Origin: Bordetella genomosp. 11
Lineage (GTDB): Bacteria; Pseudomonadota; Gammaproteobacteria; Burkholderiales; Burkholderiaceae_B
Direction of reading: 5' to 3'
NCBI RefSeq assembly: GCF_002261215.1
Contig: NZ_NEVS01000004.1
Coordinates: 2,604,001-2,668,000 of the forward strand
DNA length: 64,000 bases
The notes under the pieces were generated by a model, which was given only the letters and a program-made list of their open reading frames with translations, was not told the origin of the DNA and made no database searches. Shown piece after piece: positions 51,276 to 56,797 of this stretch (position 1 is the first letter of the stretch; the number at the start of each line of letters is the position of its first letter). The position numbers and the translations under genes were made by a program.

Positions 51276-52019
51276 TTATTCGGGCGGGGTATCGCGCGCG
51301 GCGGGGTCGCACAGCATGTGATAAAGGTTGCGCAACATCGCCGCCGTGGCGCCCCAGATGAAATACCTGCCCCACGGCATCGAGTAGTACTTTCGCACAC
51401 GGCCGTCCGGGAGTTCGACGCGATGCAGGCGATGATTGGCCGGATCCGTGATGAAGGACAGCGGCACTTCGAAAATCTCCGCGACTTCGAAGGGGTCGGG
51501 CACGAGCTCGAAGCCCGGCCGAACCAGTCCCACCGCGGGGGTGATGGAAAACCCGGTGGACGTCAGATACGCGGGCATCGTGCCCAGCACCTCGACCCAT
51601 TCCGGCCCCAGGCCGGTCTCTTCCTGCGCCTCGCGCAGGGCAGCGGCGATCGGGCTGGCATCCGTGTCCTCGATCCGTCCCCCGGGGAAACTGATCTGCC
51701 CCGCGTGATCATGCAGATGGGCGGTACGCTGCGTCAGCATGACGCTTACGCCTTCCTCCCGCATCACCAGCGGGATCAGCACCGCCGCCAGCACGGGCGG
51801 CCCCTCGCGGCCCGGATAGCGCACATCGCCGTTCAGGGGCAGTTGCGCCGGCCAGCCGGCCGGATGCTGCAGCACCCGCCGCAATTCTTCCGCGGCCAGG
51901 GCCTGGGGCGGCACGGGAAGCAAGCCTTCGTTGGCCGCAACCCAGGGCTGCACAGCGGCGTCAAAGGCGGGTCGAACGATGGGACGGCGAGGACGCGACG
52001 AAGCGGGCTGGTCAGGCAT
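51276..52019 (-). CDS. Nudix hydrolase, CoA pyrophosphatase type
   Basis: This family cleaves coenzyme A and its esters to adenosine 3',5'-bisphosphate and phosphopantetheine. The 247-aa protein has the CoA-specific motif TQRTAHLHDHAGQISFPGGR immediately before the Nudix box GGRIEDTDASPIAAALREAQ with EETGLG. I chose the ATG at 52017-52019 (MPDQPASSRP). It lies after the rplS terminator on the same strand, so it probably has its own promoter. Confidence 0.9.
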   Translation of the reverse strand: MPDQPASSRPRRPIVRPAFDAAVQPWVAANEGLLPVPPQALAAEELRRVLQHPAGWPAQLPLNGDVRYPGREGPPVLAAVLIPLVMREEGVSVMLTQRTAHLHDHAGQISFPGGRIEDTDASPIAAALREAQEETGLGPEWVEVLGTMPAYLTSTGFSITPAVGLVRPGFELVPDPFEVAEIFEVPLSFITDPANHRLHRVELPDGRVRKYYSMPWGRYFIWGATAAMLRNLYHMLCDPAARDTPPE

Positions 52020-52087
52020 GAGGGGTAAAGCGCGGAGTGAACGAAAGACGACGATAGGATGCGGATTGAGAATACCCGCTTGAAAAC

Positions 52088-52114
52088 AAAAAGGCACCCG
52101 CTGGGGGTGCCTTT
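52088..52114 (-). terminator. Rho-independent terminator of rplS
   Basis: GGCACCC and GGGTGCC, extended by AAA/TTT, form the stem. Read on the minus strand it ends in TTTTTGTTTT. It lies about 40 nt after the L19 stop. Confidence 0.9.
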
Positions 52115-52151
52115 GCTGATGAGGGGCCGGCGGGCGGCACCATCATCGCGA

Positions 52152-52562
52152 TCAGGACGCTGCGGTCTCGGCAGCCTTGGCCGATTGCGCGGCAGCCTGA
52201 CGGCTGACCAGCTTTTCCTTGATACGAGCGGACTTGCCCGAACGGTCGCGCAGGTAGTACAGCTTGGCGCGGCGAACGTCACCACGGCGCTTCACCTCGA
52301 TAGAGGCGATCTGCGGCGAGTACAACTGGAAGGTCCGTTCCACGGCCTGGCCCGACGAGATCTTGCGCACGATGAAGGCGGAATTCAGCCCACGGTTGCG
52401 CTTGGCGATAACGACGCCTTCGAACGCCTGCACGCGCTTGCGCGTACCTTCGACGACATTGACGTTGACGATCACGGTGTCGCCGGGCGCGAAAGACGGC
52501 ATCGTCTTGTCGGCGGTCAGGCGCTTGATTTCTTCCTGTTCCAGGATATCGATAAGGTTCAT
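52152..52562 (-). CDS. rplS: 50S ribosomal protein L19
   Basis: L19 sits at the 30S-50S interface. The 136-aa product shows the family core [43 protein letters not shown] and [23 protein letters not shown] (split: [23 protein letters not shown]). A short Ala/Lys-rich tail follows. The usual upstream partners rpsP, rimM and trmD are not in the window on this side, so rplS stands alone here. Confidence 0.97.
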
Positions 52563-52688
52563 GAGAACTCCGAAATCATCGTGCCATGCGATTGTTATGA
52601 TGAAAACCTGCGCCGCATGCAGAGGATGACGTTTGGCAAACCGAGCATTCTACATCAAATCAGTAGCTTAGGTAAATCGACCGCCACC

Positions 52689-53042
52689 TCAGAAACCCGC
52701 GGCCGCGCCCAGCCACATCAATGCGGGAATCATCGCGCCCCACATGGCGACCAGCAGGATATCCACCACCATCTGACGCAGCGTAACGTCCTGGCCAGCC
52801 CCGGATGCAACCCCGGATATGGTCCCTGATATGGCCCCGGGCACAGCCCCGGATGTGGATCCGGCGCGCGGCAAGGATGCAGGCGAGGCCGGAAAAGCGC
52901 CAGGCAAAGGCATGACGCCCAGCGCCCCGTCGCGGCGTGCCCGGCGGAACGGCGACAGCAGGTGCCCCCATGCACGGCGCGCGGGCGGTGCGGGCGGAAA
53001 CGGCCATTTGGTCGGGAATTGCGGTTCGGCTGCGAGATTCAT
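52689..53042 (-). CDS. Small membrane protein in a putative SOS operon
   Basis: A 117-aa unrecognised protein. Residues 1-60 are Pro/Arg-rich with no signal peptide. Residues 61-84 are a run of short xxxG repeats (STSG, AVPG, AISG, TISG, VASG) encoded by a 12-bp tandem repeat. Residues 91-114 form a single strong membrane segment (MVVDILLVAMWGAMIPALMW). AAGGAGC precedes the ATG at 53040-53042. It lies 24 nt after the radical SAM gene with its own ribosome site and no terminator between, so it should be co-expressed from the LexA-box promoter. Small membrane proteins in SOS regulons can inhibit division or depolarise membranes; that role here is speculation. Confidence 0.68.
   Translation of the reverse strand: MNLAAEPQFPTKWPFPPAPPARRAWGHLLSPFRRARRDGALGVMPLPGAFPASPASLPRAGSTSGAVPGAISGTISGVASGAGQDVTLRQMVVDILLVAMWGAMIPALMWLGAAAGF
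52799..52858. repeat. Five-copy 12-bp tandem repeat inside the small membrane protein gene
   Basis: Units CCCCGGATGCAA, CCCCGGATATGG, TCCCTGATATGG, CCCCGGGCACAG and CCCCGGATGTGG follow without gaps. Each encodes four residues ending in Gly on the minus strand. The unit length keeps the frame, so copy-number change would alter only linker length. Confidence 0.85.
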
Positions 53043-53066
53043 GCGAGTGCTCCTTGGGAGACATAC

Positions 53067-54368
53067 TTAGTCGAATAGACCCAGCTGCCTCGCGGGCGCA
53101 GGTCCATGAGCAAAGCCCGGCCCCCTGGAACGGGAAAAAGGGGCCGGAGCAATAAATTGTTGGGTATCCAGTTGCAGGCGCCGACGGTTGAGCCCCGCCC
53201 GGCGTACCGCCACATCAAAGCGCTGGCGCAGCAGATCGGACCAGATGCCGGTACCGCGCATGCGGGTGCCGAAACGGGCGTCGTTGCGCTTGCCTTCCCG
53301 CATGTCTTCGATGCGGTGGAGGACGCGTTCGGCGCGATCGGGAAAATGCGCCTGTAACCATTCCTCGAAAACAGGCTTCACTTCCCAGGGCAGCCGGATC
53401 ACGGTATAGCTGGCGTAGTAGGCGCCCGCCTGGGCGGCCTCTTCGATGATGCGCTCGAGAAATTCGTCGTTGATGAAGGGAATGATGGGTGCAGCCAGCA
53501 CGCCCACCGGAACGCCGGCATCCGCCAAGGTTTTGACGGCCTGCAGCCGCCGCCAGGGCGCCGAAGCGCGTGGCTCCAGGCTACGCGAAAGATCGGCGTC
53601 CAGCGATGTGATGCTGATGTAGACCGCCACAAGGTTGCGCTGCGCGAGCGCCTTCAGGATATCCAGATCGCGTTCGATGAGGGCATTCTTGGTAACGATC
53701 GTCAGGGGATGCCCGGTTTCCAGGAGCAGTTCCAGCACGCCCCGTGTCAGGCGCCACGTACGTTCGATAGGCTGGTAGACGTCCGTGGCGGAGCCGATAT
53801 TGACCGGTTCCGCGCGGTACCCCGGGCGGGCGAGTTCCGCACGCAGGGCGTCCACCGCGTTGGCCTTGGCGATGAGCCGGGTCTCGAAATCCAGCCCGGG
53901 GGAATACCCCAGGTAAGCATGGGTGGGCCGGGCATAGCAGTATGCACAGCCATGTTCGCAGCCACGGTAGGTATTGATCGCCCGGTCGAAGGGAACATCG
54001 GGCGAATCGTTGCGCGACAGCAGCTTGCGCGCCTGTTCGACCATGACCTGCGTCGTGGGCCCGCGCTGGCTCGGCTCGCCGCCCTCGCCCGCGTCGGCAG
54101 CGATCGGATACACCGGGTATCCGGGGTGTCCGGACCGGGGTTGGCCGGGGGCGAACTGATAAATAGGGACTGAAGTAGGGGCAGAACCGGGGGGAGAACC
54201 GGGGACCGAGTCGGCCAGCGCCGGCTCGTCTGCCGGATCCGCTGCGCTGCGTTCATCGCGCTGGAAGCGATGCCGAACATTAGTAACCGCACCCCGACCG
54301 CGCAAGGCGGCGGGGGCGGCAGCCGGGGACCCAGAACCGGCAAAAACGGAATGATCGGTACGTGCCAT
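53067..54368 (-). CDS. PA0069-family radical SAM protein (SPL-like), probably SOS-regulated
   Basis: A 433-aa radical SAM enzyme of the spore-photoproduct-lyase-like PA0069 group, whose reaction is unknown but suspected to involve DNA damage. The cluster motif is CEHGCAYC (Cys137, Cys141, Cys144), followed by SPGLDFETRLIAKANA, IGSATDVYQPIE and VTKNALIERDLDIL. The first 110 residues are a Pro/Ser/Ala-rich extension. A LexA-type box and a matching promoter end just before the ATG at 54366-54368, and the predicted transcription start is that A, so the mRNA may be leaderless. Pseudomonas PA0069 is known to belong to the LexA regulon, which supports the call. Confidence 0.88.
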   Translation of the reverse strand: MARTDHSVFAGSGSPAAAPAALRGRGAVTNVRHRFQRDERSAADPADEPALADSVPGSPPGSAPTSVPIYQFAPGQPRSGHPGYPVYPIAADAGEGGEPSQRGPTTQVMVEQARKLLSRNDSPDVPFDRAINTYRGCEHGCAYCYARPTHAYLGYSPGLDFETRLIAKANAVDALRAELARPGYRAEPVNIGSATDVYQPIERTWRLTRGVLELLLETGHPLTIVTKNALIERDLDILKALAQRNLVAVYISITSLDADLSRSLEPRASAPWRRLQAVKTLADAGVPVGVLAAPIIPFINDEFLERIIEEAAQAGAYYASYTVIRLPWEVKPVFEEWLQAHFPDRAERVLHRIEDMREGKRNDARFGTRMRGTGIWSDLLRQRFDVAVRRAGLNRRRLQLDTQQFIAPAPFSRSRGPGFAHGPAPARQLGLFD

Positions 54369-54373
54369 GAAGA

Positions 54374-54393
54374 TACTGTACATCCATACAGTA
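54374..54393. promoter_or_regulatory. LexA (SOS) box upstream of the radical SAM gene
   Basis: TACTGTACATCCATACAGTA matches the E. coli LexA consensus (CTGT-N8-ACAG with TA flanks) at 17 of 20 positions, with perfect 6-bp inverted ends. It lies 5 nt before the start codon and covers the predicted -10 element, so bound LexA would block transcription. Confidence 0.88.
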
Positions 54394-54403
54394 CTTCTGG
54401 CAA
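54375..54403 (-). promoter_or_regulatory. Sigma-70-type promoter overlapping the LexA box
   Basis: On the minus strand TTGCCA (54403 to 54398) and TACAGT (54380 to 54375) are separated by exactly 17 nt. Seven nt further is 54368, the A of the radical SAM ATG. This predicts a leaderless transcript. Confidence 0.6.
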
Positions 54404-54535
54404 GAACCTGCCGCCTTTTTTTTCGGCGACGTCCCACTTTACCCCAACTTCGCCGGCCGCTGGGGGCAAACTCCCGGACTGTGGCTTTGTCGCAAAACCC
54501 GCATGAAATAAGGCTTTCCGGCCGATGGCATGGTA

Positions 54536-54562
54536 AAAGCGCCCGCCCGGGGGCCGCTTTAC
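54536..54562 (-). terminator. Possible terminator after cysN
   Basis: On the minus strand AAAGCGGCCC and GGGCGGGCGCTTTT can pair with a small bulge, ending in TTTT. It lies directly after the cysN stop. The imperfect stem makes this tentative. Confidence 0.45.
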
Positions 54563-54567
54563 CCGCT

Positions 54568-55866
54568 TCAGCGCAGCATGCCGGCCGCCGCGGTCTGATG
54601 CGTCGATTCGTCGATCAGAATGAACGCGCCGGTGGCCGCGACATCGTCGTAGCGATCGAGTATCAGCGGATCGCGCGTCGCGATCAGCACCTTGCCGATG
54701 TCGTTCATCCCGAGTGTCCCGACATCGCGATCGATCTCGCGCAACTCGTGAATGTCGCGGCGTGTCACGACCTCGCGGATCTTCGCCGTCGTAAGCCGGG
54801 TACCGTGCTTCAACAGATATCGGCGCGCCGGGTTGAGCGGCTGCGTGTCGAGCCAGCACAGTTCCGCTTCCAGTTCCTTGCCCACCCGTGCCGGCGCGGA
54901 GGCATGCGACAGCACATCGCCGCGCGACACGTCGACATCACGATCCAGCACCGCGATCACCGAATCGCCCGCCGTCGCGCCGGAGAGGATGCGATCGTGC
55001 GCGCGCACCTCGACCACGCGGGCCGTCGTCCCGGATGGCTGCACCGTGATCTCGTCTCCAGGCCGGAGGGTACCGCTGGCGATGCGCCCCGCATAACCGC
55101 GGAAATCCTGCGCGCTGCTGCCATCGTGGCGCACCACCCACTGCACCGGAAAACGCAGCGGAGCATGCGCGCCGGCCGCCGATGGATCCAGCGATTGCAG
55201 CAGGTCCAGCAGCGGGGGCCCGTCATACCAGGGCGTGTGCGCGGAAGCCGTTACGACATTGTCGCCGTTCAGCGCGGACACGGGCAGCACCTGGAAATCC
55301 GCGATGCCGATACGGCGCGCCAGGTCGGCATAGGCATCGCGGATACGTTCGAACACCGCGCGGTCCCACCCCGCCAGATCCATCTTGTTGACCGCGACGA
55401 CGATGTGGCGGATCCCCAGCAGCCGCGCGATGGTGCTGTGCCGCTTCGTCTGCGGCAGCAGCTGTCCGTCGGCCGCCCGCGTCGCATCGATCAGGATGAC
55501 CGCCACATCGGCGGTGGAGGCCCCGGTCACCATATTCCGCGTGTATTGCTCATGCCCCGGCGCGTCGGCGATGATGAACTTGCGGCGCGGCGTCGCGAAA
55601 TAGCGGTACGCGACGTCGATGGTGATGCCCTGCTCGCGCTCGGCTTCCAGCCCGTCCGTCAGCAATGCGAAGTCGATGCCGTCGCCGGCCACGCGCTTGT
55701 ACTTGGCCCGGGCGATGGCATCCAGCTGGTCGGCGTAGACGCTTTTGCTGTCGTACAGCAAACGTCCGATCAGCGTGGACTTGCCGTCGTCGACCGAGCC
55801 GGCCGTGATGAGCCGGATGACGGCCGTTTCGCCCGCGGGCAGGAAGGATTCGTTGATGGCATTCAT
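54568..55866 (-). CDS. cysN: Sulfate adenylyltransferase, GTPase subunit
   Basis: CysN couples GTP hydrolysis to sulfate activation by CysD, giving APS. The 432-aa protein has the translation-factor G domain: GSVDDGKSTLIGRLL, the switch EREQGITIDVAYRYF, DAPGHEQYTRNM and NKMD, followed by EF-Tu-like beta domains. It ends without the C-terminal APS-kinase (CysC) domain found in some fusions, consistent with a direct APS reductase upstream in the operon. It is the last gene of the sulfate operon. Confidence 0.95.
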   Translation of the reverse strand: MNAINESFLPAGETAVIRLITAGSVDDGKSTLIGRLLYDSKSVYADQLDAIARAKYKRVAGDGIDFALLTDGLEAEREQGITIDVAYRYFATPRRKFIIADAPGHEQYTRNMVTGASTADVAVILIDATRAADGQLLPQTKRHSTIARLLGIRHIVVAVNKMDLAGWDRAVFERIRDAYADLARRIGIADFQVLPVSALNGDNVVTASAHTPWYDGPPLLDLLQSLDPSAAGAHAPLRFPVQWVVRHDGSSAQDFRGYAGRIASGTLRPGDEITVQPSGTTARVVEVRAHDRILSGATAGDSVIAVLDRDVDVSRGDVLSHASAPARVGKELEAELCWLDTQPLNPARRYLLKHGTRLTTAKIREVVTRRDIHELREIDRDVGTLGMNDIGKVLIATRDPLILDRYDDVAATGAFILIDESTHQTAAAGMLR

Positions 55867-55888
55867 GCGGTGTGGCTCCGGTCCGGCT

Positions 55889-56797
55889 TCAGAAATAACC
55901 TTCTTTCTTGCGGCGCTCCATGGAGGCCTCGGAGGTCTGGTCGTCCATCCGCGTGGCGCCGCGCTCGGTGATGTCGCTCAACGCGGTCTCGGCGATGATG
56001 GCCTGGTTGTCCGCGGCATCGGAGGCCACCGGGCAGGTGCACGAGATGTCTCCCACGGTGCGGAACCGCACCGACAGGGTTTCCACCTGCTCGTCCGCCT
56101 GCGGGGGCGTCAGCGGCGTGACCGGCACCAGCAGGCCGCGCCGGCGCACCACCTGCCGTCGATGGCTGTAGTAGATCGATGGCAGCGCCAGGTTCTCGCG
56201 GGCGATGTATTGCCATACATCCAGTTCGGTCCAATTGGAGATCGGGAATACCCGCATGTTCTCGCCGCGATGCACGCGCGTGTTGTACAGGCTCCAGACT
56301 TCCGGACGCTGGCTCTTGGGATCCCACTGGCCGAATTCGTCGCGGAACGAAAAGATGCGCTCCTTCGCGCGCGCCTTTTCCTCGTCGCGCCGCGCGCCGC
56401 CGATGCAGGCATCGAAGCCGAATTCGGCGATCGCTTCCAGCAGGGTGACCGCCTGCGCGGCATTGCGCGAATCGGTTTCCTTGCGCAGCACCACCGAGCC
56501 GCGTGCCATCGAGTCTTCCACGCTGCGCACGATCAGCCGTTCACCCAGCTCCGCGGCGCGAGCGTCGCGAAACCGGATGACTTCCGGAAAATTGTGCCCC
56601 GTGTCGATGTGCATCAGCGGAAACGGGAAGCGGGCCGGCCGGAACGCCTTTTCCGCCAGGCGCAGCAGCACGCAGGAATCCTTGCCGCCGGAAAACAGCA
56701 GGACCGGCCTTTCGCATTCGGCCGCGACCTCGCGCATGATGAAAATCGCTTCGGATTCCAGCCAATCCAGATGGCTGCGGGTATGGACGATGGACAT
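55889..56797 (-). CDS. cysD: Sulfate adenylyltransferase, catalytic subunit
   Basis: CysD forms APS from ATP and sulfate. The 302-aa PP-loop protein shows LLFSGGKDSCVLLRLAEKAF, HIDTGHNFPEVI, GGARRDEEKARAKERIFSFR (within 20 residues) and NWTELDVWQYI. The tail SDITERGATRMDDQ and RRKKEGYF is typical. It lies 22 nt before cysN and 33 nt after cysH, all co-directional. Confidence 0.96.
   Translation of the reverse strand: MSIVHTRSHLDWLESEAIFIMREVAAECERPVLLFSGGKDSCVLLRLAEKAFRPARFPFPLMHIDTGHNFPEVIRFRDARAAELGERLIVRSVEDSMARGSVVLRKETDSRNAAQAVTLLEAIAEFGFDACIGGARRDEEKARAKERIFSFRDEFGQWDPKSQRPEVWSLYNTRVHRGENMRVFPISNWTELDVWQYIARENLALPSIYYSHRRQVVRRRGLLVPVTPLTPPQADEQVETLSVRFRTVGDISCTCPVASDAADNQAIIAETALSDITERGATRMDDQTSEASMERRKKEGYF

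Follow-up and report, generated by a model that had tools for sequence, protein, structure and literature searches.

How do Betaproteobacteria without SulA, the soluble FtsZ inhibitor of Escherichia coli and Pseudomonas, halt division while their DNA is repaired? Searches of the open-licence PubMed Central (PMC) literature, which were only partly aimed at this point, returned no answer; all literature searches mentioned below have the same scope. The question is raised by a locus in the window, that is, the whole 64,000-nucleotide (nt; 64-kb) stretch of Bordetella genomosp. 11 DNA that was analysed (contig NZ_NEVS01000004.1, positions 2,604,001 to 2,668,000), in which a LexA box lies ahead of a gene for a PA0069-family radical SAM protein that is followed by a gene for a small membrane protein. 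A first-pass annotation, made from the letters of the window, had read this pair as a two-gene SOS operon and proposed that the small protein could be an SOS effector such as a division inhibitor, a suggestion that would fit the findings. The comparative analysis described here supports the predicted operon, points to the small gene as an SOS gene in its own right, and leads us to favour, with modest confidence, a reading in which the SOS unit supplies an inhibitor of the late divisome that acts like SidA, SosA or YneA.

A predicted SOS unit with a single LexA box

The predicted unit and its surroundings consist of the following parts, given in window coordinates.

54374..54393, palindromic and assigned to neither strand: LexA box TACTGTACATCCATACAGTA, matching the consensus TACTGTATATATATACAGTA at 17 of 20 positions and CTGT-N8-ACAG at 8 of 8; a box lies at the same place before the radical SAM genes of relatives
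54403-54375, minus strand: promoter-like site TTGCCA-17-TACAGT, a match to a sigma-70-like consensus only, overlapped by the LexA box
53067..54368, minus strand: PA0069-family radical SAM gene, 433 amino acids (aa) counted from the ATG at 54368, with NF033668 and PF04055 matches
53937..53960, minus strand: CEHGCAYC within the radical SAM protein, an instance of CxxxCxxC, which we take to be the radical SAM cluster motif; its presence served as a test alongside NF033668
53050..53055, minus strand: AAGGAG, ribosome-binding site of the small gene, read from the sequence
52689..53042, minus strand: gene of the putative small SOS membrane protein, 117 aa, of no known family, with homologues in relatives
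52992..53009, minus strand: KWPFPP motif, residues 12-17 of the small protein, in its presumed cytoplasmic part
52692..52763, minus strand: C-terminal membrane helix of the small protein, residues 94-117, in which D94, W101, I105, P106, W110, G112, G116 and F117 are most conserved
52152..52562, minus strand: rplS (ribosomal protein L19), named by eye from the sequence, a downstream neighbour outside the unit

The LexA box, which had been described as matching at 17 of 20 positions, is confirmed as such and is the sole site with three or fewer mismatches to the LexA consensus in the 64-kb window, while none arose in 100 dinucleotide shuffles. A consensus scan of 52100-54700 also agreed with the earlier statement that the box covers the -10 element of the only promoter-like match ahead of the radical SAM gene. 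A separate promoter for the small gene, which the first-pass annotation had named as a finding that would count against an operon, was looked for in the same scan, and no promoter-like site was found between the two genes; the second match of the scan lies after the small gene and before rplS (2 found, against 0.8 expected in shuffles). Between the radical SAM stop codon and the small gene is a 24-nt gap (53043-53066) that holds the latter's own AAGGAG (53055-53050), just as had been reported. The ATG at 54368 lies only 5 nt from the LexA box, so if the predicted -10 (TACAGT, 54380-54375) is right, transcription of the radical SAM gene would begin at or next to this ATG and yield a leaderless mRNA, a deduction made by eye. 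An in-frame ATG is also found inside the LexA box (window 54366-54403).

The first gene of the unit was correctly recognized as PA0069-type, since its product scores 457.2 bits on NF033668 (rSAM_PA0069) against a cut-off of 360 and is therefore a member of that family. Its best segments share 62-76 percent identity with named Bordetella proteins, and identity to the protein of Bordetella sp. H567 (genome G058) is 82 percent; its PHROG matches are phrog_13321 and, weakly, a PHROG named DNA repair photolyase, and it had no match in a search of the Protein Data Bank (PDB). A PA0069-type radical SAM protein is probably a DNA-damage enzyme. A LexA-like site was present in the scanned upstream stretch of 41 of 80 radical SAM loci, including 26 of 26 from Pseudomonas and 0 of 5 from Cupriavidus, and two further Bordetella loci among the 80 have one farther upstream. 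PA0069 of Pseudomonas is presumably a member of the LexA regulon, as the first-pass annotation had also stated; no paper was found that treats LexA together with PA0069.

The small gene has LexA boxes of its own where it stands apart

The distribution of the small gene was examined in a set of 150 genomes that comprises Bordetella genomosp. 4 (G001) and its relatives. A single-sequence search with the small protein gave 34 proteins, and a profile search, in which the 7998 candidates sharing most words were scored, gave at least 81, the named ones coming from Bordetella, Achromobacter (one of the two genera in which the first-pass annotation had proposed to look), Orrella, Corticimicrobacter and Advenella. 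By profile search of the genomes, the small protein is present in at least 72 of the 150, a lower bound because no more than 27 candidates per genome were scored. Each of these genomes has one copy except G049, whose two copies (C67:28653-28799 and C82:13038-13151; L106 and L122) both have LexA-like sites and were both counted as loci. For G062, the first profile match contained internal stops, and a match at the same place from an order-wide search contains none.

Two ARRANGEMENTS were seen among the 72 genomes: the small gene comes straight after the radical SAM gene, in the same orientation, in 21, the two are apart in 50, and one is undecided. Among the 51 genomes outside the adjacent group, a radical SAM match over cut-off is absent in 29, lies on another contig or strand in 18 (including the undecided genome, G006, whose locus L093 borders the end of a contig, which precluded a LexA box test), and is far off on the same strand in 4. 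All 21 adjacent genomes have a box ahead of the radical SAM gene and none has one between the two genes; where first residues could be aligned, the distance from the start of the box to the ATG is 25-26 nt, which is also the spacing in the window. These observations support the predicted two-gene SOS operon. An upstream box is likewise present at all of the 22 remaining radical SAM genes in the small-gene genomes, for which adjacency was not established (20, plus those of G006 and G052).

A different regulatory signature is found at the stand-alone copies, where a LexA-like site, defined by at least 7 of 8 core positions and 13 of 20 overall, lies just upstream of 51 of 51 testable small genes (50 of 50, plus L201 of G062), 150-460 nt before the stop codon and thus just ahead of the gene. 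Tandem sites are present in 46 of 50 stand-alone loci, most often 18 or 32 nt apart. Near matches number 97 in 15.5 kb, compared with a single far match in 247 kb of the same loci; the reversed motif gave 0 near and 1 far. The start codons of these copies were chosen by ribosome-binding site score, and the internal starts that the script proposed for L102, L123, L134 and L145 were disbelieved. For the stand-alone loci among L099-L150, the start-to-start spacings of the tandem boxes fall into three groups (18-19, 24-28 and 30-34 nt) and a single case of 15; two 20-bp sites spaced by 18 nt overlap.

Both genes therefore carry boxes wherever they are located, and the small gene is without boxes of its own exactly where it lies directly behind the radical SAM gene. 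Since copies apart from the radical SAM gene bear their own LexA boxes, the small gene is, by its predicted sites, an SOS gene in its own right, and we rejected, on the same ground, the view of it as a mere passenger behind the radical SAM gene. Taken across these loci, the conserved sites make it almost certain that the small gene is under SOS control.

The genome of Bordetella sp. H567 (G058), assigned to this strain in part through an identical small protein (P0003), was used as a yardstick for these predictions. Three of its four exact TACTGTN8ACAGTA sites precede recA, the radical SAM/small-gene operon and a PF04120 unit, and the fourth, at L159, is unassigned; one-mismatch sites precede imuA and a radical SAM gene of the UDG-linked type. 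At L165:1501-2357, an exact LexA-type site is found 14 nt before a 108-aa open reading frame (ORF) with no Pfam or NCBIfam family, near a PF04120 low affinity iron permease-like protein, and this region is possibly another SOS unit with a membrane protein. At L169:1501-2755, a TIGR03916 rSAM_link_UDG protein is preceded, at a distance of 14 nt, by a LexA-like site with one mismatch; SOS control may thus extend to two different radical SAM genes of repair type in this genome.

Gene arrangement and distribution

The stand-alone small genes share a neighbourhood with the window. Of the 51 stand-alone loci (L093 included; gene names assigned by eye), 47 have rplS downstream in the same orientation, 41 of them at a distance of no more than 600 nt, and 27 have a peroxiredoxin gene upstream, again on the same strand; a NUDIX gene, rsgA and a gene for an M48 protease are often found next. 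The order in the window, small gene, rplS, NUDIX, rsgA and M48, matches that of the stand-alone loci, so the window locus and the stand-alone loci are one chromosomal spot. Named stand-alone cases include Orrella daihaiensis (L146), Corticimicrobacter populi (L147, with an identical protein) and the Advenella-like locus L150 (92 percent identical to an A. alkanexedens protein). In two of the four far cases on the same strand, L199 (G074:C33:28800-34600) and L200 (G044:C7:161900-171700), the distance to the upstream radical SAM gene is just 4.2 and 8.3 kb; this gene has its own box, and the small gene retains a tandem pair. These loci are possible intermediates in the making or break-up of the operon.

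Viewed from the radical SAM gene, the association is narrow. Of the 80 radical SAM loci, only 7 from Bordetella and 2 from Verticiella have a homologue of the small gene, and the small protein as a general partner of PA0069 proteins was rejected for this reason. When these 80 loci, together with L202 and L203, were scanned for small membrane ORFs within 200 nt behind the radical SAM gene, the only hits besides the homologues were unrelated ORFs (in L008, L015, L053, L073 and L080); the scan missed the small genes of L006 and L008, which lie farther off. At these two loci, from Bordetella genomosp. 1 and 5, about 0.46-0.58 kb separates the small gene from the radical SAM gene ahead of it, and the small gene has no box of its own; the radical SAM frame there is unusually long ahead of its conserved part. 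The first-pass annotation had asked whether the small gene is conserved behind PA0069 homologues: it is so in the 21 adjacent genomes and at the 7 named Bordetella and 2 named Verticiella loci, and it is not in the 50 genomes where the genes are not side by side, nor at the Pseudomonas loci, where it is absent.

The family is present in Bordetella, Achromobacter, Advenella, Orrella, Corticimicrobacter and Verticiella. An order-wide profile search, with 11 candidates scored per genome and hence low sensitivity, matched 8 of 399 genomes, all already among the 72. No small protein was found in the 16 genomes not titled as Alcaligenaceae genera, three of which are unplaced Burkholderiales metagenome-assembled genomes, and an empty search alone shows nothing. 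At this limited search depth, the family looks restricted to Alcaligenaceae.

A constrained C-terminal helix

The first-pass annotation had called the small protein undescribed, and this was borne out: the window protein has no match in Pfam, NCBIfam, PHROG, PADLOC or PDB, and none to the SulA models PF03846 and NF041583. Searches with family members at E values up to 0.1 gave four single-member Pfam hits that were taken as chance. A phage or defence origin was rejected on the missing PHROG and PADLOC matches.

The 61 aligned members are between 40 and 172 aa long and differ in their N-terminal part, in which 36 have [KR]WPF. The last 24 residues form a conserved hydrophobic helix, D-x-x-L-V-x-x-W-G-A-x-I-P-x-x-M-W-L-G-A-A-x-G-F, in which P106 and G116 are found in 61 of 61 rows, D94, W101 and G112 have 97-99 percent weight, and after which the chain stops in 61 of 61 rows as aligned. 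In this alignment (A2), the last codon of L148 is cut, L009 begins one codon late, and L139 (one extra residue) and L102, L123, L134 and L145 are omitted.

Substitution rates separate the helix from the rest of the protein. The pooled nonsynonymous to synonymous ratio (dN/dS) is 0.033/0.704 (about 0.05) for the last 27 codons and 0.208/1.07 (about 0.19) for the preceding ones, from 13 hand-picked close pairs in which two loci were used twice and single pairs range from 0 to 0.33. Because of this low ratio in the last 27 codons compared with those before, the small protein is real and the helix is its constrained part. AlphaFold, run on alignment A1, predicted one long helix (residues 83-115), with a mean predicted local distance difference test (pLDDT) score of 90-94 from residue 91 on, and modelled the remainder at low confidence with two very short helices. 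The model helix and the hydrophobic conserved segment together support a single transmembrane helix by prediction. Net charge is positive over the 30 residues ahead of the helix in 43 of 61 members and zero after it, which by the positive-inside rule suggests a topology with the N-terminus inside and the C-terminus outside.

SulA in the same genomes

None of the 72 small-gene genomes has a SulA match over cut-off to PF03846 or NF041583, and the presence of SulA in these genomes was rejected on this basis. PF03846 matched 19 of the 150 genomes, 14 of them over cut-off and none among the 72, while NF041583 matched 40 of the 150, including 17 of the 72, none of these 17 over cut-off. Such lower-scoring hits are probably ImuA, because the hit in G058 lies inside its imuA and ImuA gives weak matches to SulA models. 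The lack of a SulA match over cut-off in all 72 genomes suggests a need for a division inhibitor of another kind. SulA would fill the same checkpoint role, and the Alcaligenaceae protein is an unrelated membrane protein.

What the small protein may do

Several small membrane proteins that inhibit division after DNA damage are described in the literature cited here. SidA of Caulobacter crescentus is a 29-aa, SOS-controlled inner-membrane protein that blocks division via FtsW (PMC4211646), and single-helix inhibitors of septal synthesis are called widespread (PMC13396833; also PMC4211646). YneA of Bacillus subtilis binds FtsW through its helix and also needs an extracellular LysM domain (PMC13396833), and SosA of Staphylococcus aureus and ChiZ of Mycobacterium tuberculosis are further DNA-damage-induced small membrane division inhibitors (PMC13396833; SosA also PMC6851548). 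DidA, also of C. crescentus, is a 71-aa single-helix inhibitor that is induced by DNA damage independently of the SOS response and involves FtsN (PMC4211646). The small protein resembles SidA as a very small, SOS-controlled (here by prediction) inner-membrane protein of a Gram-negative bacterium, and it is like SosA, YneA and ChiZ in belonging, on this reading, to a class of DNA-damage-induced small membrane division inhibitors. It differs from SidA in that no sequence relation was shown, and in its length range, its variable N-terminal part and its operon with a radical SAM gene in one genome group; from DidA in bearing LexA boxes; and from YneA, with its LysM domain, and SosA, with an extended helix beyond the membrane part, in ending at the helix.

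The main rival, which we judge unlikely, is a membrane-active SOS toxin, whose effect would be to depolarise the cell or slow it and to favour dormancy. TisB and DinQ of E. coli are SOS-linked small membrane proteins to which it could be compared. TisB is termed a membrane toxin in the title of PMC11575346. A very small, hydrophobic, SOS-controlled product that is not beside the radical SAM gene in most genomes would fit such a toxin, and the tandem LexA sites of 46 of 50 loci would be in keeping with a product that needs to stay off. However, the helix is kept residue by residue, with P106 and G116 invariant, more than a pore-former should need, and the variable N-terminal part with a recurrent [KR]WPF also counts against a toxin. 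TisB and DinQ differ further in that no antisense RNA was identified at the window locus, where no Rfam match over gathering score was found in 52000-56000 (an undescribed RNA is still possible). The small protein could instead control, as part of the SOS response, another envelope target; a transporter, a protease or lipid synthesis would be examples. Any membrane target would be compatible with a conserved single helix, and nothing in the analysis singles out a partner, yet the single-helix DNA-damage proteins with known targets named in PMC13396833 act on septal wall synthesis, and we hold this explanation, too, to be improbable.

Less probable still is that the small protein anchors or partners the radical SAM protein in one repair or modification system, as its position without a second LexA box between the genes in the 21 adjacent genomes might suggest. 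Against this, 29 of the 72 small-gene genomes lack a radical SAM match over cut-off, no small-gene match was obtained in 29 of 72 radical SAM genomes, and the Pseudomonas radical SAM loci have LexA-like sites in every case yet no homologue of the small gene; apart from a weak 57-aa candidate in L073, no close membrane ORF lies behind the Pseudomonas radical SAM genes. The downstream membrane gene is thus no general companion of rSAM_PA0069. Finally, the boxes might serve rplS or another neighbour and the small ORF might be a leader or spurious, a proposal prompted by the frequency of rplS close downstream. This is very improbable: the dN/dS of about 0.05 in the helix led us to reject a leader or spurious ORF, the distance to rplS exceeds 1 kb in L001, L003, L004 and others, minus-strand genes intervene in L115, L133, L140 and L143, the boxes in all these loci stay with the small gene or its operon, and rplS has its own promoter-like site in the window.

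In the favoured reading, that of a late-divisome inhibitor, DNA damage would lead to cleavage of LexA and production of the small protein, which would insert in the inner membrane with its N-terminus in the cytoplasm. The conserved helix (D..LV..WGA.IP..MWLGAA.GF) would then bind a membrane partner by helix-helix contact, the most likely partner being the late divisome (FtsW/FtsI/FtsN), so that septation would be delayed during repair, as SidA, DidA, SosA and YneA do. Taken by itself, a division-inhibitor role for the small protein is, in our estimate, evenly balanced.

Several observations weigh against this proposal. The PDB comparison gave no match that would tie the sequence to SidA, SosA or YneA, the helix is all that the small protein has to offer when YneA requires a LysM domain besides, and one-sided conservation of the helix is weak (p about 0.017 for one chosen angle). 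The SulA argument is softened by the 17 of 72 genomes with NF041583 matches below cut-off, by the weakness of this model for other SulA types (E. coli itself scores below its cut-off), and by the absence of SulA also from kin without the small protein, which confounds the separation with kinship. As for regulation, co-transcription is less certain in L006 and L008 because of their long gap without a box; genome G052 has four exact sites (L160, L162, L164 and L166) by genes that are not SOS-like; and a reversed-pattern control (one mismatch allowed) gave, for G058/G052, 4 vs 6 and 5 vs 10 matches per strand, which is not negligible. Single sites are weak evidence for this reason, and exact matches and conservation were relied on.

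Significance for the Alcaligenaceae

No paper was found on Alcaligenaceae with the SOS response and LexA, and the listed literature on PA0069, or on Bordetella with LexA regulon or SOS terms, does not appear to concern the small gene; subscription papers, in which a mention is possible, mostly fall outside the open-licence scope. On the reading favoured here, the family would be new, working like the small SOS membrane inhibitors and having no sequence tie to any family searched. It is possible, to a degree that we would put a little short of an even chance, that this family is the SOS division checkpoint of the Alcaligenaceae, in which fast-evolving single-helix proteins take the place of SulA and act via FtsW/FtsI/FtsN, and which in the Bordetella branch has come under the single LexA box of the neighbouring radical SAM gene, without boxes of its own.

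These loci also provide a natural either/or case in promoter evolution: a small gene separated from the radical SAM gene has its own boxes, and one placed directly after it has none. In this way, the analysis names one candidate gene per genome (two in one genome) that may serve division arrest in these bacteria, with an unusually clean regulatory signature.

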